In this document: positions 31,571 through 47,605 of the stretch, piece by piece
Layout: each line of letters begins with the position of its first letter
Position numbering within the stretch: position 1 is the stretch's first letter
From: Epibacterium ulvae
GTDB taxonomy: Bacteria > Pseudomonadota > Alphaproteobacteria > Rhodobacterales > Rhodobacteraceae
Length of the DNA stretch: 49,651 nt
NCBI RefSeq assembly: GCF_018678075.1
Contig: NZ_JAHHIR010000047.1
Span: 1 to 49,651 of the forward strand
Direction of reading: 5' to 3'
Made by a program: the position numbers and the translations under genes
The notes under the pieces: generated by a model
Seen by the model: only the letters and a program-made list of their open reading frames with translations
Databases searched by the model: none
Told to the model about the DNA's origin: nothing

Positions 31571-32053
31571 ATGCCCGAAGTCACAACACCCGCCCACAAG
31601 GATGGCGACTATTTTGTAAACTACGAAGAGAAGGTTTTTGAGGACGTACAGGCCGACGAAGGTGAAAAAGCGCTGGTGACGTTTCACACCGTAGCCTTTG
31701 AAGGATCCATCGGTCTGGTCAACATTCTGCAAGCGATCCGCCTGCAGCGCAAAGGCTTTGAAACCTCGGTTCTGCTTTATGGTCCCGGCGTCTCCCTCGG
31801 CGTGCAACGCGGTTTCCCAACCCTGGGCGATGAAGCGTTTCCCGGCGCGCAGAACTACTCTGCCAACCTGATGAAGTTCATGAAAGAGGGCGGCAAAGTC
31901 TATGCCTGCCGTTTCGCGCTGCAAATGCTGATGGGTCATGGTGAACCGTCGCTGTTGCCGGGGATCACCCCGATCGCGCCTCAGGATGTGTTGGATATCG
32001 TTCTACTGCACCGCAAGGACAATGCCTTCATCCTGGACACCTGGACGGTCTGA
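31571..32053 (+). CDS. nitB: MSMEG_0572/Sll0783-family nitrogen-starvation protein (Nit1C, NitB)
   Basis: 160 residues, DsrE-like fold: [25 protein letters not shown] and [18 protein letters not shown]. First gene of the conserved nitrilase cluster Nit1C. Its biochemical role is unknown; in cyanobacteria the homologue is strongly induced by nitrogen starvation. The ATG has AGGAG upstream. A gap of 132 nt separates it from the nitrilase, the only sizeable gap in the operon. The nit symbols used here follow, from memory, the nomenclature for cyanide-assimilating pseudomonads. Confidence 0.9.
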
Positions 32054-32185
32054 TCTGGTCGCGCGCACAAGACGCGGGAGGCAACGGCGTCTCCCGCACC
32101 CTGGCGCGCATTCCATCCGGGGCAACAGCGAGGTTGCCCCAATTTTACCTGATTGCCTTTTGATTTGTCCCAGCAGGATCACCCC

Positions 32186-33172
32186 ATGTCCAACTCAACC
32201 GTCCGCGCCGCCGCCGTGCAAATCGCGCCCGATCTCACCAGCCGCCAGGGCACGTTGACCCGCGTGTTGAACGCCATTGCCGAGGCCGCCGGAAAAGGCG
32301 CCGATCTGATCGTCTTTCCCGAGACATTTGTACCCTGGTATCCCTATTTCTCATTCGTGCTGCCGCCGATGCAGCAGGGGGCCGAGCATCTGCGCTTGTA
32401 CGAAGAGGCGATGACCGTGCCCTCTCCCGAAAGCGAAGCGGTGGCCAAAGCGGCCAAGACCCATGGGGTGGTGATCGTTCTGGGCATCAACGAGCGCGAC
32501 CACGGCTCGCTGTTTAACACGCAGCTGATTTACGACGCGGACGGGACGCTGGCGCTGAAAAGGCGCAAGATCACCCCGACCTATCATGAACGCATGATCT
32601 GGGGGCAGGGCGATGGTTCCGGCCTCAAAGTGGTCGACACCAAAGTGGGCCGCATGGGCGCGTTGGCCTGTTGGGAGCATTACAACCCGCTGGCACGCTA
32701 TGCGCTGATGACCCAGCACGAGGAAATCCACGCCGCACAATTCCCCGGCAGTCTGGTCGGGCCGATCTTTGGCGAACAGATCGAAGTCACCATGCGCCAC
32801 CACGCTTTGGAATCCGCCTGTTTTGTGGTCAATGCCACCGGCTGGCTGACCGAGGAGCAGATCGCCAGCATTCATGATGATCCCAAGCTGCAAAAGGGTC
32901 TGCGCGATGGCTGCATGACCTGCATTATCTCTCCCGAAGGCCGCCATGTGGTGCCGCCTCTGACCGAAGGCGAAGGCATTCTGATTGCCGATCTCGATAT
33001 GCGTTTGGTCACCAAACGCAAGCGGATGATGGACAGCGTCGGCCATTATGCGCGCCCCGAATTGCTGCATCTGGTGCATGACGCGCGACCTGCGCGCCCT
33101 GTGCACCGGATCGAAGACGACAGTGAATTTGCCCAAACCCTTTCCCCTGAATTGGAGGCTGAAAATGTCTGA
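32186..33172 (+). CDS. nitC: Nitrilase, Nit6803/Nit1 family (NitC)
   Basis: 328-residue carbon-nitrogen hydrolase converting nitriles to acid plus ammonia. The catalytic triad is Glu46 ([12 protein letters not shown]), Lys128 ([11 protein letters not shown]) and Cys162 (LACWEHYNP). The conserved second Glu, in TYHERM, and the WEHYNP context mark it as a true nitrilase rather than an amidase. ATG at 32186 has AGGA 8 nt upstream; a TTG at 32153 is poorer. In Nit1C organisms this enzyme is implicated in using cyanide or cyanide-derived nitriles as nitrogen source. Its stop overlaps the next start by 8 nt. Confidence 0.94.
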
Positions 33173-34295
33173 TGCTGAGTTGATCAACGAATTGCAGACC
33201 CGTGGCATGCGTCTGGTGGACCCCAGCGCCGGTCACGAAAGCCGCCGTGGCGGGGCAGGGCCGACGGATCACAAGGCGGTCACAATTGGCGATCAGACGG
33301 TGATGGTGCCGGTTCATACCGCGCCGGCCTTTGACAGCCCCTATGTTGTGACCCCGGATGGCTGTGAGGGCACGGCCGAGGTCACCAAACTGGGTGCCGC
33401 CGCGCCCGAGAAGCTGGCCAAAATCTCATTCCCGGCGCGGCCCAAATTCTATGATCTGAAAACCGCCGAAGGGGTGCCCTATAATCACATCGCAGTGCTG
33501 CACGCGCGTGATGTGCTGGCAACCACGGTGCTGCAGACCTGCATTCGCTATGAAAGCCGCAAGAAAACCTGTCAGTTCTGCTCCATCGGGCAATCGCTGG
33601 CGGCGGGGCGCACCATTGCCCACAAAACACCCGAACAACTGGCCGAAGTGGCCAAGGCCGCGGTTGAGCTGGACGGGATCAAGCACATGGTGCTGACCAC
33701 CGGCACCCCGGCAGGTAAGGATCGCGGCGCGGCGGTATTGGCCGACAGTGCACGCGCGATCAAGGCGGCGGTGGATCTGCCCATTCAAGCGCAATGTGAG
33801 CCGCCCGAGGACGATGCCTGGCATCAGAAAATGTATGACGCAGGCGTCGACGCGCTGGGCATGCATCTGGAAGCGGTCACGCCCGAGGTGCGCGAACGTA
33901 TCATGCCGGGCAAGGCGCAAGTGAGCCTTGAGAAGTATTTTTCCAGCTTTGAAGCGGCGGTAAAGGTCTTTGGCCGTGGTCAGGTTTCAACCTATATTCT
34001 GGCAGGTCTTGGCGACACGGCCGAGGCGATCTTGGAAACCTCCCAAAAGCTATGTGACATTGGGGTCTACCCGTTTGTGGTGCCTTTTGTGCCGGTCTCG
34101 GGCACGCCGCTCGAAAGCCACCCGGCGCCAAGTTCTGAATTCATGGCCTCGGTCCTGCGGCCCCTGTCGCAGATGATTTTGCGCGCGGGCATGGCCGCGG
34201 ATCAGATCAAGGCAGGTTGCGGCAAATGCGGTGCGTGTTCGGCGCTGTCGACCTATGAAAAATTGGGTCTCAAAACGCTGGAGGCCGCATCATGA
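33165..34295 (+). CDS. nitD: MSMEG_0568-family radical SAM protein (NitD)
   Basis: 376 residues. The presumed [4Fe-4S] ligands are Cys126, Cys136 and Cys139, spaced CX9CX2C ([14 protein letters not shown]), not the usual CX3CX2C of radical SAM enzymes. A further Cys group near the C-terminus ([10 protein letters not shown]) may bind a second cluster. The TIM-barrel part is recognisable ([22 protein letters not shown]). Reaction unknown. ATG at 33165 overlaps the nitrilase stop by 8 nt and follows GGAGG; the in-frame upstream extension to 33048 is a shadow of the nitrilase. Confidence 0.92.
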
Positions 34296-34843
34296 GCTTT
34301 CAGAACCAATCGGTCTTTGTCTCGCCCGACTTCTTTATCCGCGCGGCAACCTTGGCCTGGGAACAGGCCGGGGCTGAGGCGCTGCGCCATCAGGTCTTTG
34401 TCCGCGAACAGGGGATTTTTCAGAACCACGACCGCGATGCAATCGATGAATTTGCGATGCCGTTGGTGGCAATCTCGACCTATGCATCCGAGGCGGATCA
34501 AGTGGTCGGCACCGTGCGCATTCACGAGGATGCTCCGGGTCTGTGGCGGGGATCGCGTCTCGCCGTGGCCCCCAGCCATCGCCGCATTGGCAGCTTGGGG
34601 GCTGAGCTGATCCGGCTCGCGGTGTCGACCGCCAACGGGCGCGGATGCGACCGCTTTTTGGCCCATGTGCAGGTGCAAAATGTGCCCCTGTTCAAACGCC
34701 TGCATTGGACCCCGATCCAAGAGGTCGACCTGCACGGTGTGCCCCATATGGAGATGTCGGCGGACCTGAACGCCTATCCCCCGATCAAAGATCCGGCTTG
34801 CGGTTGGAAAACACTGGGGCGCAGACGGCGGAGACGGGTGTGA
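34292..34843 (+). CDS. nitE: MSMEG_0567/Sll0786-family GNAT acetyltransferase (NitE)
   Basis: 183 residues. A GNAT fold with acetyl-CoA loop RLAVAPSHRRIGSLGAELIRLA and a typical VFVREQGIF N-terminal motif. The acceptor is unknown. ATG overlaps the stop of the radical SAM gene (ATGA at 34292-34295), so translation is coupled. In some genomes it is fused to the AIR-synthase-like protein that follows, supporting joint function. The C-terminus ends in an Arg-rich tail. Confidence 0.9.
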   Translation: MSFQNQSVFVSPDFFIRAATLAWEQAGAEALRHQVFVREQGIFQNHDRDAIDEFAMPLVAISTYASEADQVVGTVRIHEDAPGLWRGSRLAVAPSHRRIGSLGAELIRLAVSTANGRGCDRFLAHVQVQNVPLFKRLHWTPIQEVDLHGVPHMEMSADLNAYPPIKDPACGWKTLGRRRRRRV

Positions 34844-35826
34844 TGCAGCAGGACGCACAGCTTTCACAGATGGTGCGCGACCTGCGGGCGCACCCTTCGA
34901 TCCGGGGCAAATTGGACATTGCGGATGCCACCGCGGCACTGGGTCTGACCGGCGACAGCGCGGGCCAGCCGGGTGATGATGCGGCGGTGCTGCCGAATGG
35001 TGCGGGCTTTGATCTGTTTGCCGGTGAAGGTTTCATCAATGCCTTTGTCGAGGCCGATCCCTGGTTTGCGGGTTGGTGCGGGGTGATGGTCAATATCTCT
35101 GATATTCTGGCGATGGGCGGACGCCCCCGCGCGGTGACCAATGCGCTCTGGGCGCCAAGTGCCGAGGCCGCGCAGCCGGTTCTGGCGGGCATGAAGGCAG
35201 CCGCCAGCGCCTATAACGTGCCGATTGTCGGCGGGCACAGCAATCTGCGCACCGATCAGCTGCAACTGGCGGTGTCGATCATTGGCCATGCCAAGGCGCT
35301 GATCTCCAGCTTTGCAGCACGCCCCGGTGACGTGGTGATTGCGGCGGTGGACCACAGCGGCAGCTACCGCGAGCCGTTCGACAATTGGAACGCGGCGCTG
35401 ACCTCGACCCCGGAAAAGTTGCGCAAGAACTTGAACCTGTTGCCCGATCTCGCCGAAGCTGGACTGGTGCGCGCAGGCAAAGACATCAGCCAAGGCGGCA
35501 TCATAGGCACCGCTTTGATGCTGGCAGAGACATCCGGCGTGGCGATTGACCTGCAATGTGAGGCGATCCCGCTGCCAAATGGTGTCGCGCTGGACCGTTG
35601 GCTGCGCTCCTTCCCGAGCTTTGGCTTTTTGCTGTCTGTCGCCCCGGACAAGGCCGACGCGGTCTGTGACGCCTTCCATGCCAGCGGTATCACGGCGGCG
35701 GTTTGTGGTGATGTGACGGCGGGCAGCGCTGTGACCCTCAGCCAGCGCGGCAAACGGGCGTTGTTCTGGGACCATGCCAAGACCCCCTTTATCGATCTGA
35801 AAACACGAGAGGCCCAGCATGCCTGA
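34843..35826 (+). CDS. nitF: Sll0787-family AIR-synthase-like protein (NitF)
   Basis: 327 residues resembling PurM/SelD/HypE-type ATP-binding enzymes: GDSAGQPGDDAAVLP near the N-terminus is the conserved metal/ATP Asp motif, followed by SDILAMGGRPRAVTNALW and VPIVGGHSNLRTD. It probably phosphorylates or dehydrates a carbonyl or amide substrate in the pathway. TGATG at 34841-34845 couples it to the GNAT gene. The longer frame from 34645 is discarded because it runs through the GNAT gene. Confidence 0.9.
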   Translation: MQQDAQLSQMVRDLRAHPSIRGKLDIADATAALGLTGDSAGQPGDDAAVLPNGAGFDLFAGEGFINAFVEADPWFAGWCGVMVNISDILAMGGRPRAVTNALWAPSAEAAQPVLAGMKAAASAYNVPIVGGHSNLRTDQLQLAVSIIGHAKALISSFAARPGDVVIAAVDHSGSYREPFDNWNAALTSTPEKLRKNLNLLPDLAEAGLVRAGKDISQGGIIGTALMLAETSGVAIDLQCEAIPLPNGVALDRWLRSFPSFGFLLSVAPDKADAVCDAFHASGITAAVCGDVTAGSAVTLSQRGKRALFWDHAKTPFIDLKTREAQHA

Positions 35827-36097
35827 GATGCGATTTACCGTTCGGTGGCCCGATGGTCAGGAGGAGATCTGTTACTCCCCATCTAGTGTGGTGACCGAGT
35901 TTCTAGCGCCCGCCACCACCTATACCCTGGGGGATTTTGTGATCCGCTCCCGTCTGGCGCTGGACAAGGCAAGTGGCCGGGTGGCGGCGATTTATGGCTA
36001 CCGCTGTAGTCGGGCGGAAGCGCAGCTCGACCGGATCGAGGCGCGCGCCAAAGAGTTTGAAGACAGTGCCGAAGTGCAGTGTCTGCGTATTGGATAA
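35819..36097 (+). CDS. nitG: MSMEG_0570-family nitrogen-starvation protein (NitG)
   Basis: 92 residues. MRFTVRWPDGQEEICYSPSSVV and IYGYRCSRAEAQLDRIEARA match this small cluster-specific family, which has no known activity. The ATG overlaps the preceding stop by 8 nt (ATGCCTGA). Two Cys (CYSP, YRCS) are conserved-looking. Its consistent position beside the flavin oxidoreductase suggests a carrier or accessory role (inference). Confidence 0.88.
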   Translation: MPEMRFTVRWPDGQEEICYSPSSVVTEFLAPATTYTLGDFVIRSRLALDKASGRVAAIYGYRCSRAEAQLDRIEARAKEFEDSAEVQCLRIG

Positions 36098-36108
36098 GGA
36101 TTTCCTTC

Positions 36109-37365
36109 ATGAGTGAGCGTGAGCACAAAACCGTTGTCATCGTTGGCGGCGGTCAGGCCGGGCTGTCGACCAGCTATTATCTGACCGGTGAGGGCATCGA
36201 CCATGTGGTGCTGGAACGCCATGGCAAGTTTCATTCCTGGCGCGAGAACCGCTGGGACACCTTTTGTCTGGTAACCCCCAACTGGCAATGCCGCCTGCCG
36301 GATTTCCCCTATCAGGGCAGCGACCCGGATGGGTTTATGGTCAAGGAAGAGATCACCGACTACCTCGATGCCTTTGCCGCCAAGTTCAATCCGCCGCTGG
36401 TGGAACACTGCGCTGTGACCCGGATCACGCGGACCGAGGACGGCTCCTATCTGGTGGACACTAGCCAAGGCAATTACAGCGCTGATCAGGTGGTGATTGC
36501 CACTGGGGGTTATGACAACCCCATCGTGCCGCCCTATGCCGGTGATCTGGATCCATCGATCCTGCAGATGCATTCGGTGGACTACCGCCGCCCGGCGCAG
36601 ATGCCGGAAGGCAAGACCTTGGTTGTCGGCACTGGCCAGTCCGGCGTGCAGCTGATGGAGGATCTGCATCTGGAAGGGCGCGAGGTTGCGCTTGCGGTTG
36701 GACCCGCGCCACGCTCCCCCCGTCAGTACCGCGGCCGCGACGCTACCGATTGGCTCTATGAGATGGGGCATTACCATATCACCATCGACCGCCACCCAGA
36801 CCCGGTGCATGCGGTGACCAAGACCAACCACTATATGACCGGGCGCGACGGCGGGCATGAGATCGACCTGCGCCAATTCGCGCGTGAGGGCGTCGGGCTT
36901 TATGGATCGGTATCCGGCATGTCTGGCCAGACCATTCAATTCCTGCCGGATCTGGCGCAAAACCTGGATGATGCGGATGCCAGCTATGTCGGGATTTGCA
37001 AAGCGATCGACACCTATATCACCAAAGAGGGGATCAACGCCCCCGAAGCGAAGCCATTTGAAAAGGTCTGGCACCCCGAGGTTGAGGTGACCGAAATCAA
37101 CTGCGCTGACGAGGGCATCACATCCGTCCTGTGGGCGATTGGCTTTCGCCCCAACTATGGCTGGATCGAGGTTGACGTCTTTGATGAGCGTGGGCGTCCG
37201 AAATACACGCGCGGTGTCTGCGATGTGCCGGGTTTCTATTTCATCGGGCTTGGCTGGCTTAACACTTGGGGGTCGGGGCGGTTCCTTGGGATTAACGAGG
37301 ATTCCCGTTACCTCGCCGATGCGATTGCCCAATATGCCAAAACGCCGGTGCTGGAAGCCACGTGA
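36109..37365 (+). CDS. nitH: MSMEG_0569-family flavin-dependent oxidoreductase (NitH)
   Basis: 418 residues. The FAD-binding Rossmann motif is VVIVGGGQAGLSTSYYL at the N-terminus, with an NAD(P)-binding motif VVGTGQSGVQLMEDLHL at about 170. Architecture is like flavin-containing monooxygenases: oxygen and NADPH would hydroxylate or oxidise a nitrogen compound. ATG at 36109 with AAGGA upstream; an ATG ten codons earlier lies inside the previous gene and is not preferred. The stop overlaps the next gene start. Confidence 0.92.
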   Translation: MSEREHKTVVIVGGGQAGLSTSYYLTGEGIDHVVLERHGKFHSWRENRWDTFCLVTPNWQCRLPDFPYQGSDPDGFMVKEEITDYLDAFAAKFNPPLVEHCAVTRITRTEDGSYLVDTSQGNYSADQVVIATGGYDNPIVPPYAGDLDPSILQMHSVDYRRPAQMPEGKTLVVGTGQSGVQLMEDLHLEGREVALAVGPAPRSPRQYRGRDATDWLYEMGHYHITIDRHPDPVHAVTKTNHYMTGRDGGHEIDLRQFAREGVGLYGSVSGMSGQTIQFLPDLAQNLDDADASYVGICKAIDTYITKEGINAPEAKPFEKVWHPEVEVTEINCADEGITSVLWAIGFRPNYGWIEVDVFDERGRPKYTRGVCDVPGFYFIGLGWLNTWGSGRFLGINEDSRYLADAIAQYAKTPVLEAT

Positions 37366-38189
37366 TGACGCTGCATACACGCGAGCCGCTGGCGGCGATC
37401 CACCTGGAGGCCGAGGTGGCCTTGGGCATGGCGCAGCTGTCGCTGCGGGGCCTGTCCGAGGATTGGTGGCTGAAACATCTGGGCGATGTGCATTGGCAGA
37501 TGATTGCCCGTGCGATGGGACAAGACGAGCCGGTGTTTCGCGATGCGCAGGGGCGGCTGATCTATGCCGCCTTTTGCGCCACCCATTTCGAACAGCCCCG
37601 TCCCGATGCAGTGCCGCTGGGGGGGCGGGCACACGTGCGATCCTCCCTGTGGCAGGCGGGGCGCAGCCGGTTGCAATCCAATCACGAGGTCTTTTGCGGC
37701 GAGAGGCTGGTCCTGCGCCTGCGGATGGTGTCGACCTTTGTGACCCATGGGGAGGCCGGGGTGAATAAATCGGTGTTCCGGGTGCCGCCTGCGATTATAC
37801 CGGTCCTGCCTGCCGCGCCGGATGATTTTGCCGAAGAGGCCGCGCAAAAGGCCCGCCAATTGCGTGCGATCCATCGCGAGCAGGGTCTGAATGGGCAAAA
37901 TCTCGCACACCATATGCCGCTGCCGGACCTGGATTTCAACGCGGTAGGCCTGCTGTATTTCCCCAGCTTCACCCGGATCGCAGCAGAGGCCGAGGCGGCG
38001 CACGGCCAAAGATTGGGACCAGTGCGGTCACGGCTGATGCTCTACTTCGGAAATGTGGAAATCGGTGAGGGTATTCGGTCCGCGGTGCGGTCTGAGACCT
38101 GCAAAACGACCGCCAATCTGGCCCTCCTGAACACCGGCGGTGGGCTGCTTGCGACCTGTGATTCTCAACGTCACGAGCAAAAGGGATAG
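37365..38189 (+). CDS. LnmK/Pnap_2097-like double-hotdog protein
   Basis: 274 residues. LSLRGLSEDWWLKHLGDVHWQMI and DLDFNAVGLLYFPSFTRIAAEAE resemble the double-hotdog LnmK family (acyltransferase/decarboxylase in polyketide assembly) and the Pnap_2097-type proteins that accompany some nitrilase clusters. TGATG at 37363-37367 couples it to the flavin oxidoreductase. It suggests that the Nit1C pathway handles an acyl- or thioester-linked intermediate (inference). The family call is from memory. Confidence 0.75.
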   Translation: MTLHTREPLAAIHLEAEVALGMAQLSLRGLSEDWWLKHLGDVHWQMIARAMGQDEPVFRDAQGRLIYAAFCATHFEQPRPDAVPLGGRAHVRSSLWQAGRSRLQSNHEVFCGERLVLRLRMVSTFVTHGEAGVNKSVFRVPPAIIPVLPAAPDDFAEEAAQKARQLRAIHREQGLNGQNLAHHMPLPDLDFNAVGLLYFPSFTRIAAEAEAAHGQRLGPVRSRLMLYFGNVEIGEGIRSAVRSETCKTTANLALLNTGGGLLATCDSQRHEQKG

Positions 38190-38224: not shown

Positions 38225-38481
38225 ATTTTCTGCGGTGCGGCTATGCAAACGGCGAAAAAGCCGCCCATTTGTTGAGCTTTTGTTAAAAAACTTTCCGTGA
38301 GCCGGGCCGGGGATTTGCACCGCAGCGCTCCAAGGTGATGAGCTTTTGGCAACACAATCGTGGACAATGGCGTCCATGGATCAATTTGGTACCGCCAAAG
38401 TTTGGCAGGCACCCAGTTTCGAGCAATGTCGCTCATCGCTTAGGGCATCCCATCAATTTGGGGTGCGTGACCCTTTGACAG
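38225..38481. other. Gap before the redox operon, with a candidate operator
   Basis: No gene is apparent. GCATCCC (38445-38451) and GGGGTGC (38460-38466) form an imperfect inverted repeat 15 nt before the first redox gene. No FNR box (TTGAT-N4-ATCAA) was found. A promoter for the operon must lie here. Confidence 0.35.
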
Positions 38482-40497
38482 GTGGGAAATACGTTGCAAC
38501 CGGAAGCTCAGCTTACTTCGCCAGGACCGGATCTTTCAGGCCCCGAGACACCAACAGCCCAGAAGGTTGTGGTGATCGGTGGCGGTCCTGTCGGCATTCG
38601 TGCCGCACAAGAGCTGGTGCAACGTGGACAACAGGTCACAGTTCTAAGCGGTGAGGCCGTCACTCCCTATAATCGCGTGCGTCTGACGCCGCTGTTGTCG
38701 GGTGATGTGCAATTTGGCGACATCATTCTGCCGGATCTTGAGAACCTGGGCGAGGGGTTTACCCTGGTCGAAGGCATGCGCGTGGTGGCGATCGACCGTG
38801 ATGCGCAACAGGTTGTGACCGCAGATGGCGGCACATGGCCCTTTGATAAATTGGTGGTGGCGACCGGCTCCAACGCCTTTGTGCCGCGTATTCCGGGTGT
38901 CGAACTGCCAGGCGTGTTTACGTTCCGCACGGCGGATGACGCTGCGGCCCTGCTGGCGCGGTCCTTGTCGGCGCGCAAAGTGGCGGTCATCGGCGGCGGT
39001 CTTTTGGGGTTGGAAGCGGCCAAGGGGATGCGTGCGCGTGGCTGTGAGGTCACGGTGATCGAACACGAAGCTCGCCTGATGCCGCGCCAGTTGGACAGCG
39101 GTGGCGGCGCACGGCTTGCCTTGCAGATCGAAGACATCGGCGTTGCGGTGCGCACCGGGATCGCGGTGAAAACCATTGATGGAGAGTTCCGCGTCGCGGG
39201 GCTGACCCTGTCCGATGGCAGCACAATCTCCTGCGACACGGTGATCGTCTGCACCGGCGTGCGCGCCAATATCACACTGGCGCAAGAGGCCAAACTGGCC
39301 TTTGGCCGCGGTGTGGTTGTCAACGACCAGATGCAGACCAGCGATCCCGATATCTTTGCCGTCGGGGAATGCTGCGAGCATCAGGGGCAGATGTATGGTC
39401 TGGTGGGACCGGGCTATGCCCAGGCCGAGGTCGCCGCAGCCGAGATAGCCGGAGAGGGCACGCGCTTTGTCGGCCAGACCCCGGCAACCAAGCTCAAAGT
39501 CATTGGCGCAGACGTGTTTTCTGCCGGAGCGGTCGAACAGCTTGATGCCTCCGCCGCAATCAAGAGCCACGTCTGGGAAGACAATCTGGGCTATCGCCGG
39601 ATCTTTCTGGATCGGGGCAAGCTGGTGGGGGCCATTGCCGTTGGCCCCTGTCCGCAAGCAAGCCGCCTGCAGGACGGGGTTGAACAACAGATCACGGTCT
39701 ACCCTTGGATGCTGCATCGGTTCCGCAAGACCGGCCAGCTGTGGTTGGAAGGCGAACAGGCCGTAGATGCGATGCCGGACACGGCGACTGTGTGCAATTG
39801 CACCGGCGTGACCTGTGGCGCGATCCGCAAAGCGATCAACAATGGCTGCGGCACAGTGGATGAGGTCAGCTTTGAAACCGGGGCCAGCACCGTATGCGGC
39901 ACCTGCCGTCCGCTGGTCGAGGATCTGATCGATGTGGGCGGCAAACCGCAGCCGATGCCTTTGTGGAAGCCGGTTCTGGGGTTTTCCTGCGTGGCGGCTC
40001 TTGGCGCGTTGTATCCGCTGTTGGCCGGACATGTTCCGCTGCCGACCAGCTATGACGCGGACAGCCTGCGGGTCTGGTTGTGGCGTGACAATATCGTCAA
40101 ACAATGGAGCGGGTTTATCCTGCTGGGGCTGTTTGTCTCGGCCATGGTGATCGGTCTGCGCAAACGGATCCGCTGGACAGATCGCTTGGGCAGTTTTGAT
40201 GCCTGGCGGCTGGTGCATCTGGGGATCGGCATTGCCGCGATCATCGGCTTTGTCGCCCATACCGGGTTCCGGCTGGGCAGTAATCTAAACATGGCGCTGG
40301 GGCTTGGCTTTATTCTGACCGCGGCCTTTGGGGCGATTGCCGGTCTGACCACTGGCGGCGATCACGAGCTGCGCGCGCGCCGCATTGGCAACAGCCGCAA
40401 CCCTCCGCGTAAACTGCCCACTTGGGTTCATATCCTCACTATCTGGCCTTTGCCTGTGCTGATTTTGCTGCACGTGCTGGCCTCTTACGCGTTTTGA
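38482..40497 (+). CDS. NirB-like FAD/BFD flavoprotein fused to a b-haem-like membrane domain
   Basis: 671 residues. FAD motif VVVIGGGPVGIRAAQEL at about 29 and TPYNRVRLTPLLSG as in NirB; NAD(P)H motif VAVIGGGLLGLEAAKG at about 168. A BFD-type [2Fe-2S] domain at about 434-484 has CNC and CGTC ligand pairs. Five hydrophobic helices follow; two contain paired His (WRLVHLGIG/VAHTGFR and VHILTIW/LLHVLASY) suited to two b haems. The siroheme-binding catalytic part of NirB is absent. This looks like a one-polypeptide NAD(P)H-to-periplasm electron conduit. Start is GTG 38482; a TTG at 38494 is possible. Confidence 0.85.
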   Translation: MGNTLQPEAQLTSPGPDLSGPETPTAQKVVVIGGGPVGIRAAQELVQRGQQVTVLSGEAVTPYNRVRLTPLLSGDVQFGDIILPDLENLGEGFTLVEGMRVVAIDRDAQQVVTADGGTWPFDKLVVATGSNAFVPRIPGVELPGVFTFRTADDAAALLARSLSARKVAVIGGGLLGLEAAKGMRARGCEVTVIEHEARLMPRQLDSGGGARLALQIEDIGVAVRTGIAVKTIDGEFRVAGLTLSDGSTISCDTVIVCTGVRANITLAQEAKLAFGRGVVVNDQMQTSDPDIFAVGECCEHQGQMYGLVGPGYAQAEVAAAEIAGEGTRFVGQTPATKLKVIGADVFSAGAVEQLDASAAIKSHVWEDNLGYRRIFLDRGKLVGAIAVGPCPQASRLQDGVEQQITVYPWMLHRFRKTGQLWLEGEQAVDAMPDTATVCNCTGVTCGAIRKAINNGCGTVDEVSFETGASTVCGTCRPLVEDLIDVGGKPQPMPLWKPVLGFSCVAALGALYPLLAGHVPLPTSYDADSLRVWLWRDNIVKQWSGFILLGLFVSAMVIGLRKRIRWTDRLGSFDAWRLVHLGIGIAAIIGFVAHTGFRLGSNLNMALGLGFILTAAFGAIAGLTTGGDHELRARRIGNSRNPPRKLPTWVHILTIWPLPVLILLHVLASYAF

Positions 40498-40507
40498 GGG
40501 TGGGCGG

Positions 40508-41998
40508 ATGAAGACCAAATTCCTTTGGATGGCCTGGGGAATTGGCACCTTTGCGCTGGCAGGGGTTGGGCTTGCACGCATCTATGTGACTGGCGACCGG
40601 ACCGATCTGTTGCCCGGACAGACCGCAGGTGTGCACCACCAGATCGAGCTGGCCTGTGAGACCTGCCACACGTCCAAACCCTTTGCCGGACAAAAGAAAA
40701 TCCGCAAGGACATCAACAAGACCTGTGTGAATTGCCACAAGGATGAGCTGAAGGCCTCGGACGACAGCCACCCGATAAAAAAGTTCAAACCACCCCGTAT
40801 GGCGGCCTATTGGGATGAGATCGACGCGCGGTTCTGCACCTCGTGTCACAGCGAACACCGGCCCGAGATTACATCAGCAGGTCTGGTAACCCAGCCGGGC
40901 GATTTCTGCGTCGCCTGTCACAGCGAAGGCGACCAAGACGTGCGGGTCAACCGCGAAAGCCATGAAGGTTTGGGCTTTGAAACCTGTGCAACGGCCGGCT
41001 GCCATAATTTCCACGACAACCGCGCGCTGTACGAAGATTTCCTGGTGAAACATTCGGATCAACCCTGGTTGCAGGAAGATCCTACCCATTCGATAGAGGC
41101 CGCTGCACGCGAGAAACCCCGTCCCGAGATCGCAGATATCGAAGCCTATCTGGCCGAAGTCTCGGCCCCTGTCTCGGCGCGTGATCAAGGGGTCGAAGCC
41201 CATTGGGCGGGATCTGCCCATGCGTTGGCGGATGTGAATTGCGCCAGCTGCCACGCGCCCAAGGCTGAGACCGAAGAAGAGGTTACCGCCCAGTGGATCG
41301 AACACCCCGAAGAGAAAGTCTGCGCCAGTTGCCACAAGGATGAGGCCAAGACCTTTGCGCTGGGGCGTCACGGCATGCGCCGCCACCCCGAAGTGTCCAA
41401 TCCGCGCCCTGCCAAACGGATGCTGAAACGTCTGGGCTGGTCCGATCCGTCAGATGGCGCGATTGCATTCCTTGAGGCCTATTTGGTTGACCCAACCCCG
41501 GCCCCGTTGATGAGCACCGCTGAGGCCCGCGTGCCATTGCTGCCGGATGCCCACGGCGAAGAGCTGACCTGTTCCACCTGTCACGACCCGCATGAACAGG
41601 ATCTGCAATTTGCAGCCGTGGGCGCTTGCCTGTCGTGTCACGCGGATGAGCACAGTCAGAATTTCACCCAAAGCCCCCACTTTGCCCTGTGGCAAAGGGA
41701 GCTGGCAGGAGACCTGCCGCCGGGATCCGGCGTGACCTGCGCGACCTGCCATATGCCCAAAACCGAGAGACGCGGTGTAATCACCACCAATCACAACCAG
41801 AACGACACCCTGCGTCCAAACGAGAAAATGATCCGCCCGACCTGTCTGGAATGCCACAGTCTGGAATTTGCCATCGATGCTTTGGCGGATCCGGAGCTGG
41901 TGAACCGCAACTTTACGGGCCAGCCAAATCGCCACATCGAGAGCCTCGATTGGGCGTTGAAACGCGTGACCCAGCCGACCGAAGGCGCCAACCAATGA
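40508..41998 (+). CDS. Multihaem cytochrome c with eleven haem-binding motifs
   Basis: 496 residues exported or anchored by an N-terminal hydrophobic segment (FLWMAWGIGTFALAGVGLARI). Ten CXXCH motifs: CETCH, CVNCH, CTSCH, CVACH, CASCH twice, CSTCH, CLSCH, CATCH and CLECH. One CX4CH variant also occurs (CATAGCH). The GVHHQIELACETCHT region resembles the NapC/cytochrome c3 style. No siroheme, copper or P460-type motif is apparent, so it may only carry electrons or may reduce a small molecule. It starts 10 nt after the flavoprotein gene. Confidence 0.9.
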   Translation: MKTKFLWMAWGIGTFALAGVGLARIYVTGDRTDLLPGQTAGVHHQIELACETCHTSKPFAGQKKIRKDINKTCVNCHKDELKASDDSHPIKKFKPPRMAAYWDEIDARFCTSCHSEHRPEITSAGLVTQPGDFCVACHSEGDQDVRVNRESHEGLGFETCATAGCHNFHDNRALYEDFLVKHSDQPWLQEDPTHSIEAAAREKPRPEIADIEAYLAEVSAPVSARDQGVEAHWAGSAHALADVNCASCHAPKAETEEEVTAQWIEHPEEKVCASCHKDEAKTFALGRHGMRRHPEVSNPRPAKRMLKRLGWSDPSDGAIAFLEAYLVDPTPAPLMSTAEARVPLLPDAHGEELTCSTCHDPHEQDLQFAAVGACLSCHADEHSQNFTQSPHFALWQRELAGDLPPGSGVTCATCHMPKTERRGVITTNHNQNDTLRPNEKMIRPTCLECHSLEFAIDALADPELVNRNFTGQPNRHIESLDWALKRVTQPTEGANQ

Positions 41999-42049
41999 CC
42001 GGCTGGTCACGCACCCTGCAACCCGCGAAAGGCACAGGAGACCTTACAT

Positions 42050-42622
42050 ATGGGAAATAAAATAGGAAAAATCAAAGCCTCAATTCTGGGCGCAGCCCTG
42101 ATGGGCACCACAGCGACCAGCGCTATGGCCGATGGTATGGAGTTTGAGACAGTTGCGGACCTTCTGCACCTGGTCATGAGCTCGGATCGTACGGTTTACA
42201 CCCGCATGGTTGTGAACCGTTTGGCCAATGAAGAAGGCGTGATCACCGCGTCTGAACACTTTGTCGACGACAAGGCGCTGGTTCTGCCGGCACAGATGTT
42301 CCGCTTTGGGGCAGAGATGGTGGCAGAGAACACCGATGAGTTCTCATACTCCTTGCTGTCGCTGTGGCCGATCAACAAGCAGAACGCACCAACGACCCCA
42401 ATGGAAGAAGAAGGCCTGCAGTATATCAACGATAACCCAGGCGAAAACTTCTATGGTGTCGAAGAGCTGGGCGGCGACGAGTATTTCACCGCTGTTTACG
42501 CAGATGTTGCGGTCGCTCCGGCCTGCTACACCTGCCACAACGAGCACAAAGACAGCCCACGTACCGACTTTGAAGGCGGCGACGTGATGGGCGGTGTTGT
42601 GATCCGTATCCCGGTCAACTGA
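42050..42622 (+). CDS. DUF3365 (Tll0287-like) monohaem protein
   Basis: 190 residues. Signal peptide ASILGAALMGTTATSAMA, cleavage near residue 26. The single haem motif is CYTCHNEHKDSPRTDFEGGDVMG near the C-terminus, the hallmark ending of DUF3365/Tll0287-like proteins. This PAS-like fold holds a c-type haem and is proposed to sense or transfer electrons to redox signals. It lies between the two cytochrome genes; stop and next start are 5 nt apart. Confidence 0.88.
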   Translation: MGNKIGKIKASILGAALMGTTATSAMADGMEFETVADLLHLVMSSDRTVYTRMVVNRLANEEGVITASEHFVDDKALVLPAQMFRFGAEMVAENTDEFSYSLLSLWPINKQNAPTTPMEEEGLQYINDNPGENFYGVEELGGDEYFTAVYADVAVAPACYTCHNEHKDSPRTDFEGGDVMGGVVIRIPVN

Positions 42623-42627
42623 TCGCC

Positions 42628-43080
42628 GTGCGTGGGTCGACACATAAATCTCGGCTCTGGCCGCTGGTGGGGGCTGTCGCGTTTTTCGCGGCGGCCACTC
42701 CACTGCAGGCAGAGCCTTTTCCTGCAGATCTCCTGGCCCCAAAAGGGATCGAGGGCTTTGTCTCGGTTGAGCGTTTGCCCATGCCCCAGGACGCGGTGTT
42801 GCAAGACGGACGCGTCGTTTGGGAAGACACCTGCCAGGCCTGCCACGGCGGCAACCGGTTGACCGGTGCGCCCAAAATCACCGCAACAGATGCATGGAGC
42901 CCCCGGATCGAGCAGGGGCTGGCGGTGCTGTTTGACCATGCCATCAACGGATTTACCGGACCCAAATACACCCAGATGCCACCGCGCGGCAGCAATGAGG
43001 ACCTGAGCGATGCGCAGGTTCAGGCAGCGGTGCGCTTTATGGTCTGGGCCAGCGGCGGTGACACGCTGGCAACTGAATAA
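42628..43080 (+). CDS. Small periplasmic cytochrome c
   Basis: 150 residues, GTG start 5 nt after the DUF3365 stop. Signal peptide LWPLVGAVAFFAAATPLQA. One haem motif, CQACH, and a late Met (YTQMPPRG) as probable sixth ligand, a class I cytochrome c (c5-like). It is likely the soluble periplasmic shuttle linking the multihaem protein to other redox partners. Confidence 0.88.
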   Translation: MRGSTHKSRLWPLVGAVAFFAAATPLQAEPFPADLLAPKGIEGFVSVERLPMPQDAVLQDGRVVWEDTCQACHGGNRLTGAPKITATDAWSPRIEQGLAVLFDHAINGFTGPKYTQMPPRGSNEDLSDAQVQAAVRFMVWASGGDTLATE

Positions 43081-43124
43081 CGCAGCAAAACACATATACG
43101 AACCCCGACAGGAGGACTGAAAAC

Positions 43125-43589
43125 ATGGATAGCAATCAAATCACTCTGATCCAGGACAGCTTTGCCAAAGTGGTGCCCATCAAAGACGCGGCCGCTGAGA
43201 TCTTTTACAACGATCTGTTTGAAACCGCGCCCGAGGTGAAGCCCTATTTCGCCAATACCGACATGAGCGAACAAGGCTCGAAACTGATGGCGACGTTGGG
43301 CGTTGTGGTGAACGGTCTGCGCGACCTCGACAAGATCGTGCCGGTTGCCCAGAAGCTGGCGATTGGCCACGTGGGTTACGGCGTAAAGGCCGAGGATTAT
43401 GACAAGGTTGGCGGCTCCTTGCTGCGCACCCTGGAAAAAGGTCTGGGTGAGGCCTGGACGCCCGAGGTCGCTGAGGCCTGGACCACAGCCTACACCACAT
43501 TGGCCGGTGTCATGAAAGACGCAGCCTATCCACCGGTCGCCATGGCAGCTGGTGGCGGCAAAAAGCCATTTTGGAAATTCTGGGCCTGA
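43125..43589 (+). CDS. Single-domain globin
   Basis: 154 residues, a bacterial haemoglobin of Vitreoscilla/flavohaemoglobin-globin type without the reductase domain. Proximal His is in LAIGHVGYGVKAEDY; the distal pocket Phe/Gln region is in FETAPEVKPYF. Strong AGGAGG ribosome-binding site. Such globins bind oxygen or detoxify NO when a reductase is available. Its place as last gene of a flavoprotein/cytochrome operon suggests the flavoprotein may reduce it (inference). A terminator follows. Confidence 0.93.
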   Translation: MDSNQITLIQDSFAKVVPIKDAAAEIFYNDLFETAPEVKPYFANTDMSEQGSKLMATLGVVVNGLRDLDKIVPVAQKLAIGHVGYGVKAEDYDKVGGSLLRTLEKGLGEAWTPEVAEAWTTAYTTLAGVMKDAAYPPVAMAAGGGKKPFWKFWA

Positions 43590-44391: not shown

Positions 44392-46696
<2,305 letters not shown>

Positions 46697-47605
46697 ATGA
46701 TGAACATTACCCTACGCCAGTTGAAGTATTTCGAAGCCCTTGCCCAACAGGGTCACTTTGGCCGTGCGGCTGATGCCGCGAATGTGTCCCAGCCCGCTCT
46801 TTCAGTTCAGATCAAAGAGTTAGAGGCCAATTTGGGCATGTCGCTGTTTGAACGCACCGCGCGGTCCGTGCAGCTCACCAGCTTTGGAGAAGAATTCCGC
46901 ACCCGTGCCCAAGAGATCCTGCGCGCGGTGGATGAGTTGGGAGATCTGGCGCGGGCTGCGAAACAGGGGCTGGCCGGGCGCTTGCGTCTGGGTGTGATTC
47001 CCACCGTGGCCCCTTATTTGCTGCCCCAGGTGGTGACCGGATTGGGCGCGCGCTATCCGCAGCTTGAGTTCCGTATCCGCGAGACCCAGACCCAACACCT
47101 GACCCGCGCGATCAAAGATTGTCAGTTGGACACTGCGATCATGGCGCTGCCCGTAGGAGAGACAGGGTTTGTCGAACACCCGCTGTTTGATGAGGATTTC
47201 GTTCTGGTGCGCCCTGTCTCGGACGCCAAAAACCCGGTGCCCAGCCAGGAGAGCCTGCGCGAAATGCAGCTGTTGCTGCTGGAAGAGGGGCATTGCTTTC
47301 GCGATCAGGCGCTCAGCTTTTGCGAACTGCGTCCGAGCCAGTCGCGCGAGGTGATGGATGGGTCTTCCTTGTCGACGTTGGTGCAGATGGTGAACGCAGG
47401 CCTGGGTGTGACACTATTGCCAGAAATGGCGGTGCCGGTGGAAACCCGTTCTGCCGATGTCTCCATCGCGCGTTTCGTCAGCCTACGCCCCAGCCGTAAA
47501 ATCGGAATGGTCTGGCGCAGGACCAATCCGATGGGCGACAAATTGGCCGGGCTGGCGGCGGATATTGCCGATATTCTGGACTGCGTAAAGCCAGACGGCC
47601 GGTAA
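46697..47605 (+). CDS. oxyR: Peroxide-sensing LysR-type regulator OxyR
   Basis: 302 residues. N-terminal LysR winged helix-turn-helix (QLKYFEALAQQGHFGRAAD, SQPALSVQIKELE) and a C-terminal sensing domain with the redox cysteines Cys200 and Cys209 in EEGHCFRDQALSFCE, matching the C199/C208 pair of E. coli OxyR. Peroxide-driven disulfide formation activates it. It should regulate katG next door. ATG at 46697 with AGGA 7 nt upstream; the next codon but one is also ATG-compatible. Confidence 0.95.
   Translation: MMNITLRQLKYFEALAQQGHFGRAADAANVSQPALSVQIKELEANLGMSLFERTARSVQLTSFGEEFRTRAQEILRAVDELGDLARAAKQGLAGRLRLGVIPTVAPYLLPQVVTGLGARYPQLEFRIRETQTQHLTRAIKDCQLDTAIMALPVGETGFVEHPLFDEDFVLVRPVSDAKNPVPSQESLREMQLLLLEEGHCFRDQALSFCELRPSQSREVMDGSSLSTLVQMVNAGLGVTLLPEMAVPVETRSADVSIARFVSLRPSRKIGMVWRRTNPMGDKLAGLAADIADILDCVKPDGR

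Follow-up and report, generated by a model that had tools for sequence, protein, structure and literature searches.

A five-gene haem operon of Epibacterium ulvae with an ANTAR-type leader and a possible place in nitrate assimilation

A 49,651-nucleotide (nt) stretch of Epibacterium ulvae DNA (contig NZ_JAHHIR010000047.1; the whole stretch is called the window below) contains five haem or flavin protein genes, which the initial annotation had described as one operon closed by a single strong terminator. All five open reading frames (ORFs) were recovered on the plus strand, with gaps of 10, 51, 5 and 44 nt. The terminator hairpin ranked first among the terminator-like sites in 37-45 kb, and such sites were in mild excess there as a class (12 versus 8.2 in shuffles, standard deviation 3.1). 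A leader element 5' of gene 1 had been overlooked. The features are as follows.

38359-38378, plus strand: first leader hairpin (P1), with core GGAC-AATGGC-GTCC spanning 38362-38375 and a hexaloop whose first letter is A and fourth is G
38421-38434, plus strand: second leader hairpin (P2), GAGC-AATGTC-GCTC, whose hexaloop likewise has A first and G fourth; a putative target of ANTAR (NasT) type
38482-40497, plus strand: gene 1 ORF, 671 amino acids (aa), GTG start
40508-41998, plus strand: gene 2 ORF, 496 aa
42050-42622, plus strand: gene 3 ORF, 190 aa
42628-43080, plus strand: gene 4 ORF, 150 aa, GTG start
43125-43589, plus strand: gene 5 ORF, 154 aa
43618-43648, plus strand: intrinsic terminator hairpin, 13 pairs, T-rich tail

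The best 80 of the 412 gene 2 relatives in genome contigs were taken as loci for comparison. In 31 of them gene 1 carries a flavoprotein part (class A, from Rhodobacteraceae and some other Alphaproteobacteria), and the remaining 49 form class B, from metagenome assemblies of Alpha- and Gammaproteobacteria and from less clearly named bins. Genes 1, 2 and 3 were present in all class A loci, the globin (gene 5) in 28 and the small cytochrome c (gene 4) in 22. The neighbourhood search proposed in the initial annotation recovered the complete set in 20 of the 31 loci, in the same order and strand as judged from match positions. Among the gene 1 copies counted, that of L013 is cut by the contig end and that of L018 is interrupted in the assembly (a 215-aa open frame versus ~660 in relatives). 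The gene 2 cytochrome itself is rare: it was found in 7 of 150 family genomes (6 full and 1 partial, with three weaker matches left out) and in 4 of 390 order genomes, the own genome included (E at most 1e-50). No description of the five-gene set was found in the accessible parts of the literature searched.

Class B resembles the window operon in its membrane b domain (47 of 49 loci), its cytochrome, its DUF3365 gene (gene 3, 44 of 49) and its gene order. It differs in that neither the globin nor gene 4 was detected in any of the 49 loci, and in that a GPP34-type N-terminus replaces the flavoprotein of gene 1 in 45 of them; this N-terminus was assigned by Pfam in one protein and by similarity to that protein in the rest. 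The joining of GPP34 (Golgi phosphoprotein 3) to a di-haem-b membrane domain can be seen at L038:2212-3384 and in other class B loci. Some class B bins hold several copies of the cluster (JAJDYI is the common record prefix of L029, L034 and L049).

Gene 1 contains Pyr_redox_2 and Fer2_BFD domains followed by a membrane part without a Pfam match. It can be described as a NirB-like NAD(P)H:flavin adenine dinucleotide (FAD) module and a BFD [2Fe-2S] domain, joined to a di-haem-b membrane domain (residues ~490-671) in which we read five helices. The N-terminal FAD/NAD and BFD half is common to NirB: the match to TIGR02374 (NirB) reached 408.6 bits, which is below the cut-off, and covered only model positions 1-467 of 794, and across class A this half shares 34-40% identity with NirB of the own genome. 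In contrast to NirB, gene 1 has a membrane cytochrome b domain instead of the sirohaem reductase half, and no sirohaem/[4Fe-4S] nitrite reductase half was among its Pfam matches (25 of 26 families inspected). Di-haem b membrane cytochromes of the NOX/FRD and superoxide oxidase type use two helices that each carry a pair of ligand His spaced 13-14 residues apart. The membrane domain of gene 1 has this spacing, with two H-x13-H pairs (H100/H114 and H171/H185, domain numbering) whose four His are invariant in 32 of 32 sequences. The AlphaFold2 model of gene 1 has a predicted local distance difference test score of 82. Fold matches of the membrane domain were no better than unrelated four-helix bundles, and its best match among PDB sequences (E 0.63) was unrelated. 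All of the 120 listed relatives (of 194) of the membrane part carry flavin and BFD domains, within a set of candidates limited in length.

The eleven haem motifs that the initial annotation had counted in gene 2 are ten CXXCH and one CX4CH, all ending in His. The protein matches cytochrome c3, paired CXXCH and C552 families in Pfam, and we read an N-terminal membrane anchor from its sequence. Residues ~216-468 resemble the haem fold of hydroxylamine oxidoreductase (HAO), octahaem nitrite reductase (ONR) and NrfA, and the C-terminal six-haem half shares profile and fold similarity with this superfamily. Gene 2 differs from it by eleven haems, the N-terminal anchor and the lack of CXXCK. In NrfA and ONR nitrite reductases the catalytic haem is ligated by CXXCK; the gene 2 protein has none. 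In 62 gene 2 sequences, 11 non-motif His are invariant for the 11 haems, which is compatible with bis-His ligation of every haem. Nitrite-reductase models scored 25.9-31.4 bits against cut-offs of 184-692, including the curated NrfA models (29.6 of 595 and 25.9 of 692.5 bits). The best NCBIfam match was the DmsE decahaem family (83.1 bits, cut-off 192.2); gene 2 differs from DmsE/MtrA-type cytochromes in its score far under the cut-off, in the scattered pieces that matched and in its eleven haems. The AlphaFold2 model is poor in the N-terminal half, so the protein may still have an HAO-like open haem. Catalysis by gene 2 alone is in our view unlikely.

Databases name this 11-haem family automatically, for example 'ammonia-forming cytochrome c nitrite reductase subunit c552' and 'NrfA- nitrite reduction protein' (P0001 and others). 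The name NrfA nitrite reductase is unsupported for gene 2, given the missing CXXCK and the low scores of the NrfA models, and the label of an ammonia-forming nitrite reductase could mislead surveys of nitrite ammonification.

Gene 3 is a Tll0287-like (DUF3365) protein (PF11845, 69.2 bits, cut-off 24.1) with a signal-peptide-like start, a single CXXCH and no other Cys. In the accessible parts of PMC12889525, DUF3365 is redefined as a haem-Cache domain, stand-alone members are thought to be redox proteins and fused members NO (nitric oxide) sensors. Gene 3 agrees with the family in its clear match, its conserved CXXCH and its stand-alone form. Just the two motif Cys occur in 62 of 75 gene 3 sequences, the window copy included, so these 62 lack the axial Cys seen in Tll0287 and the P. 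putida protein; members without the axial Cys are included in the family (PMC12889525, same parts). Gene 4 encodes a mono-haem cytochrome c of Cytochrome_CBB3 type, also with a signal-peptide-like start.

ANTAR target RNAs have two short hairpins whose hexanucleotide loops begin with A and have G as the fourth letter (PMC3369931, as far as accessible), and two such hairpins, P1 and P2, lie in the window leader upstream of gene 1. The window and 29 class A leaders together contained 39 A..G hexaloop hairpins. Mononucleotide shuffles of these 30 leaders gave a mean of 2.8 and a maximum of 9, and the other 15 loop rules gave 2-7 each. Strict hairpin pairs within 200 nt occurred in 16 of 29 class A leaders versus 0-1 of 29 for other loop rules; elsewhere in the same loci there were 36 in 1133 kb of strand (0.0064 per 200 nt). 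Within 270 nt, strict pairs were found in 1 of 43 class B leaders, counted from the GPP34 start, versus 17 of 29 class A leaders (other rules, 0-2 and 0-1). Under a looser rule, at least two hairpins were present in 17 of 29 class A leaders, in the window and in the own nrtA leader. By the looser rule, both hairpins were also found in seven of eight nrtA leaders of nitrate assimilation (nas) clusters (own plus six of seven other carriers) and one hairpin in the eighth; these eight held 19 A..G hairpins versus 25 for the other fifteen rules combined. In 37 AA-loop hairpins the closing pair was always C-G and the next three pairs took 4, 6 and 5 forms with pairing kept; since the hairpins were chosen for pairing, this variation is an illustration and not a test. 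The own nrtA leader folds as a long hairpin that includes part of P2, and a terminator follows P2 in 7 of 25 leaders.

A single ANTAR protein, NasT-like, is encoded in the own genome and lies in a nas cluster. This cluster also encodes NirB (860.6 bits) and NirD (81.7 bits), both above cut-off, a nitrate-permease-like protein (158 bits, below the cut-off of 209) and a molybdoenzyme cut at the stretch end, for which formate dehydrogenase and NasC models were below cut-off. The labels NasT, NasS, NrtA and NrtC rest on position and similarity, with NCBIfam models not above cut-off or unscanned. ANTAR proteins were present in 29 of the 30 class A genomes, against 72 of the 150 genomes of the family and 1 of the 34 searched in class B; all seven family genomes with the cytochrome (6 full, 1 partial) have one. 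By Fisher tests uncorrected for relatedness, 29/30 versus 65/143 gave P 3e-8 and 7/7 versus 65/143 gave P 0.005. L081, the sole class A genome without an ANTAR protein, likewise has no leader hairpins. In L080 (Rhodospirillaceae UBA1479) the genes run nasT, nasS, gene 1, gene 2, gene 3, globin, nirB, nirD, nasA, and in L023 nasT and nasS lie divergent beside gene 1; these two are the nas-adjacent cases among the 31 class A loci. Of 31 genomes, 30 (the own one among them) have an NrtB permease of 63-100% identity; L080 has only a 44% paralogue.

The globin provides a further connection. Gene 5 encodes a single-domain Globin without a signal peptide, with the C-terminal tail KKPFWKFWA. Its pocket has Tyr28, Gln50 and His82 at what we take to be B10, E7 and F8. 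All 29 globins compared share B10 Tyr, E7 Gln and a presumed CD1 Phe, and His82 is among the residues conserved to at least 95%. Such a pocket is well matched to tight binding of O2 and to NO chemistry, as in flavohaemoglobin-type globins. The nearest solved relatives are 3wfw and 3s1i, presumably Methylacidiphilum globins. The KK-aromatic tail occurs in 15 of 29 globins (the own copy in L001 is shortened and was left out) and might dock to the membrane. Nineteen related globin loci were found in 17 of 150 family genomes: ten between nrtC and nirB, one between nrtB and nrtC, six in this operon and two elsewhere. The nas-locus globins are 42-72% identical to the window's globin. Eight of the ten genomes with a globin between nrtC and nirB lack the cytochrome, while G075 and G142 have it. 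In G142, whose coordinates equal those of Thalassococcus L014, the globin is absent from the cytochrome operon and present in the nas operon. These results identify a family of nitrate-cluster globins whose pocket residues are defined and roughly half of whose members here have a possible membrane-docking tail. The single-domain globins inside nas operons are those of L107-L115, L119 and L120, mostly between nrtC and nirB, and most of these hosts have no haem operon.

The initial annotation had stated that no sequence feature fixes the substrate. This was wrong in part, because the ANTAR-type leader, the nas placement in L080, the ANTAR co-occurrence and the nas-operon globins point to nitrate or nitrite. 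Its statement that no characterised pathway has this gene set needs a qualifier, since the globin and flavoprotein half resembles the NasT-controlled Bjgb-Flp of Bradyrhizobium (PMC4724949, accessible parts). According to the same parts, mutation of bjgb or flp causes sensitivity to NO donors, and operon expression on nitrate needs NasT; a role in NO tolerance has been shown there (PMC4724949, PMC6759348, both in part). The narK-bjgb-flp-nasC operon shares with the window operon a single-domain globin, an NAD(P)H flavoprotein, a nitrate-assimilation regulon and NasT-type leader hairpins, a likeness drawn without comparison of the Bjgb and Flp sequences. Judging by the placement of its relatives and by the window leader, the gene 5 globin too appears to belong to a nas operon or NasT regulon. 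Unlike Bjgb-Flp, the window flavoprotein is fused to a di-haem-b domain and accompanied by the 11-haem cytochrome, the haem-Cache protein and cytochrome c, and the window operon has no nitrate reductase.

Based on the sequence, nitrate/nitrite control of the operon through NasT is very probable. In Paracoccus, NasS-NasT dissociates with nitrate or nitrite and NasT binds the nasA leader RNA (PMC3795266, in part); the first of the two leader hairpins matters for activation and the second hardly does (PMC5424462, in part). In the proposed mechanism, nitrate or nitrite would be bound by NasS, NasT would be released, and the freed NasT would bind both leader hexaloop hairpins so that the operon is expressed. 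The NirB-type FAD/[2Fe-2S] module of gene 1 would then draw electrons from NAD(P)H, and the two b haems would carry them across the membrane to the periplasmic side, where the anchored 11-haem cytochrome, the haem-Cache protein and the small cytochrome c would receive them. The initial annotation had proposed this order, from NAD(P)H through FAD, [2Fe-2S] and b haems to periplasmic c haems with a cytoplasmic globin; it fits the domains and the conserved ligands, and the genes co-occur. Flow from NAD(P)H to the periplasm is the probable direction. The globin would act at the inner face, possibly reduced by the gene 1 flavoprotein. The most likely purpose would be clearing NO, and excess nitrite, arising in nitrate assimilation: inside by NO dioxygenation or reduction at the globin, outside by N-oxide reduction through the haem relay. 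Whether removal of NO and nitrite is the main task we consider evenly balanced.

A nitrate/nitrite-induced branch of nitrate assimilation, composed of a haem relay and a Nas-type globin, has about an even chance of being the correct description as a whole. Slightly less assured is the stronger form, an undescribed transmembrane arm in which a NasT-switched, NirB-derived dehydrogenase is rerouted via the di-haem domain and reactive nitrogen is disarmed on both sides, by the globin inside and the relay outside. If true, the NasS-NasT regulon, which in the accessible parts of the literature covers nitrate/nitrite assimilation, nap and nos genes and a cytoplasmic haemoglobin, would extend to a membrane-crossing multihaem chain. 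It would also show how nitrate assimilators may handle NO and nitrite on both membrane sides, and it supplies a testable function for the 11-haem cytochrome.

Several observations weigh against this proposal. The globin is missing from 3 and the small cytochrome c from 9 of the 31 class A loci. Under the looser rule, 12 of 29 class A leaders have fewer than two hairpins (eight have one, four none), and the genomes of 11 of these 12 do have an ANTAR protein. No clear terminator was found between P2 and gene 1 in the window leader. The gap between P1 and P2 is 42 nt in the window and 33 nt in the own nrtA leader; in Enterococcus eut RNAs the natural linker is 5-12 nt and 14 nt is harmful (PMC3369931), a limit that may not hold for NasT in view of the nrtA linker. 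Class B consists mostly of draft metagenome-assembled genomes, so the absence of ANTAR proteins may partly reflect incompleteness. NirK was above cut-off in only 3 of 31 genomes (nirS was no part of the search), so NirK denitrification is usually not the NO source. In the accessible parts of published work, NO consumption of the bjgb mutant was 2.5-fold higher, not lower (PMC4724949), denitrifying conditions raised narK-bjgb-flp of B. diazoefficiens when nasT was mutated (PMC6759348), and assimilatory enzymes of S. meliloti contributed to NO indirectly only (PMC6616083).

Three other explanations were compared with NO and nitrite clearance. The 11-haem cytochrome could itself reduce nitrite (or hydroxylamine) in the periplasm to provide ammonium for assimilation, with electrons from NAD(P)H via gene 1 and the globin as an accessory. 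This is rather improbable: the protein has no CXXCK, its invariant His are compatible with all haems being bis-His, nitrite-reductase models fall far below cut-off with DmsE as the best match, and the genome encodes NirBD for reducing nitrite in the cytoplasm.

A general redox valve or oxidative-stress system acting on oxygen, superoxide or peroxide, nitrate-regulated by chance, has a still smaller chance. The nas placement of the operon in relatives and of related globins speaks against it, as does the membrane-domain fold, which matched no better than unrelated four-helix bundles. Just 3 of the 31 class A loci (L002, L003, L014) have KatG near the operon, and only 2 of the 31 a nitrilase cluster beside it, which weakens the oxygen and cyanide readings. 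Inward flow, from periplasmic cytochromes via the b haems to NAD(P)+ or the globin, is the least probable of the three. Direction is not fixed by anatomy alone, but the nearest counterpart of the FAD/BFD module is the half of NirB that oxidises NAD(P)H, and NAD+ reduction from c haems is uphill without a proton-driven step.

An Rrf2-family regulator adjoins the operon in some loci, upstream of gene 1 in L015-L018 and downstream of gene 3 in L024 and L029. The A..G hairpins are down to one or none in L015-L018. L016 and L017 contain CATTCAT..ATGAATG palindromes, which are imperfect in L015 and L020. In L015-L018 this combination suggests a change of regulator.

Other genes flank the operon in the window. 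On the minus strand at 44392-47605, KatG adjoins an OxyR-like LysR regulator (OxyR model below cut-off). The nitrilase cluster at 31571-37365, which we take to be of Nit1C type, comprises MSMEG_0572, Nit6803 nitrilase, MSMEG_0568 radical SAM, MSMEG_0567 GNAT, sll0787 AIR-synthase-like, MSMEG_0570 and MSMEG_0569 proteins. Directly 5' of the leader, 37362-38189 encodes an LnmK/Pnap_2097-family acyltransferase/decarboxylase-like protein.

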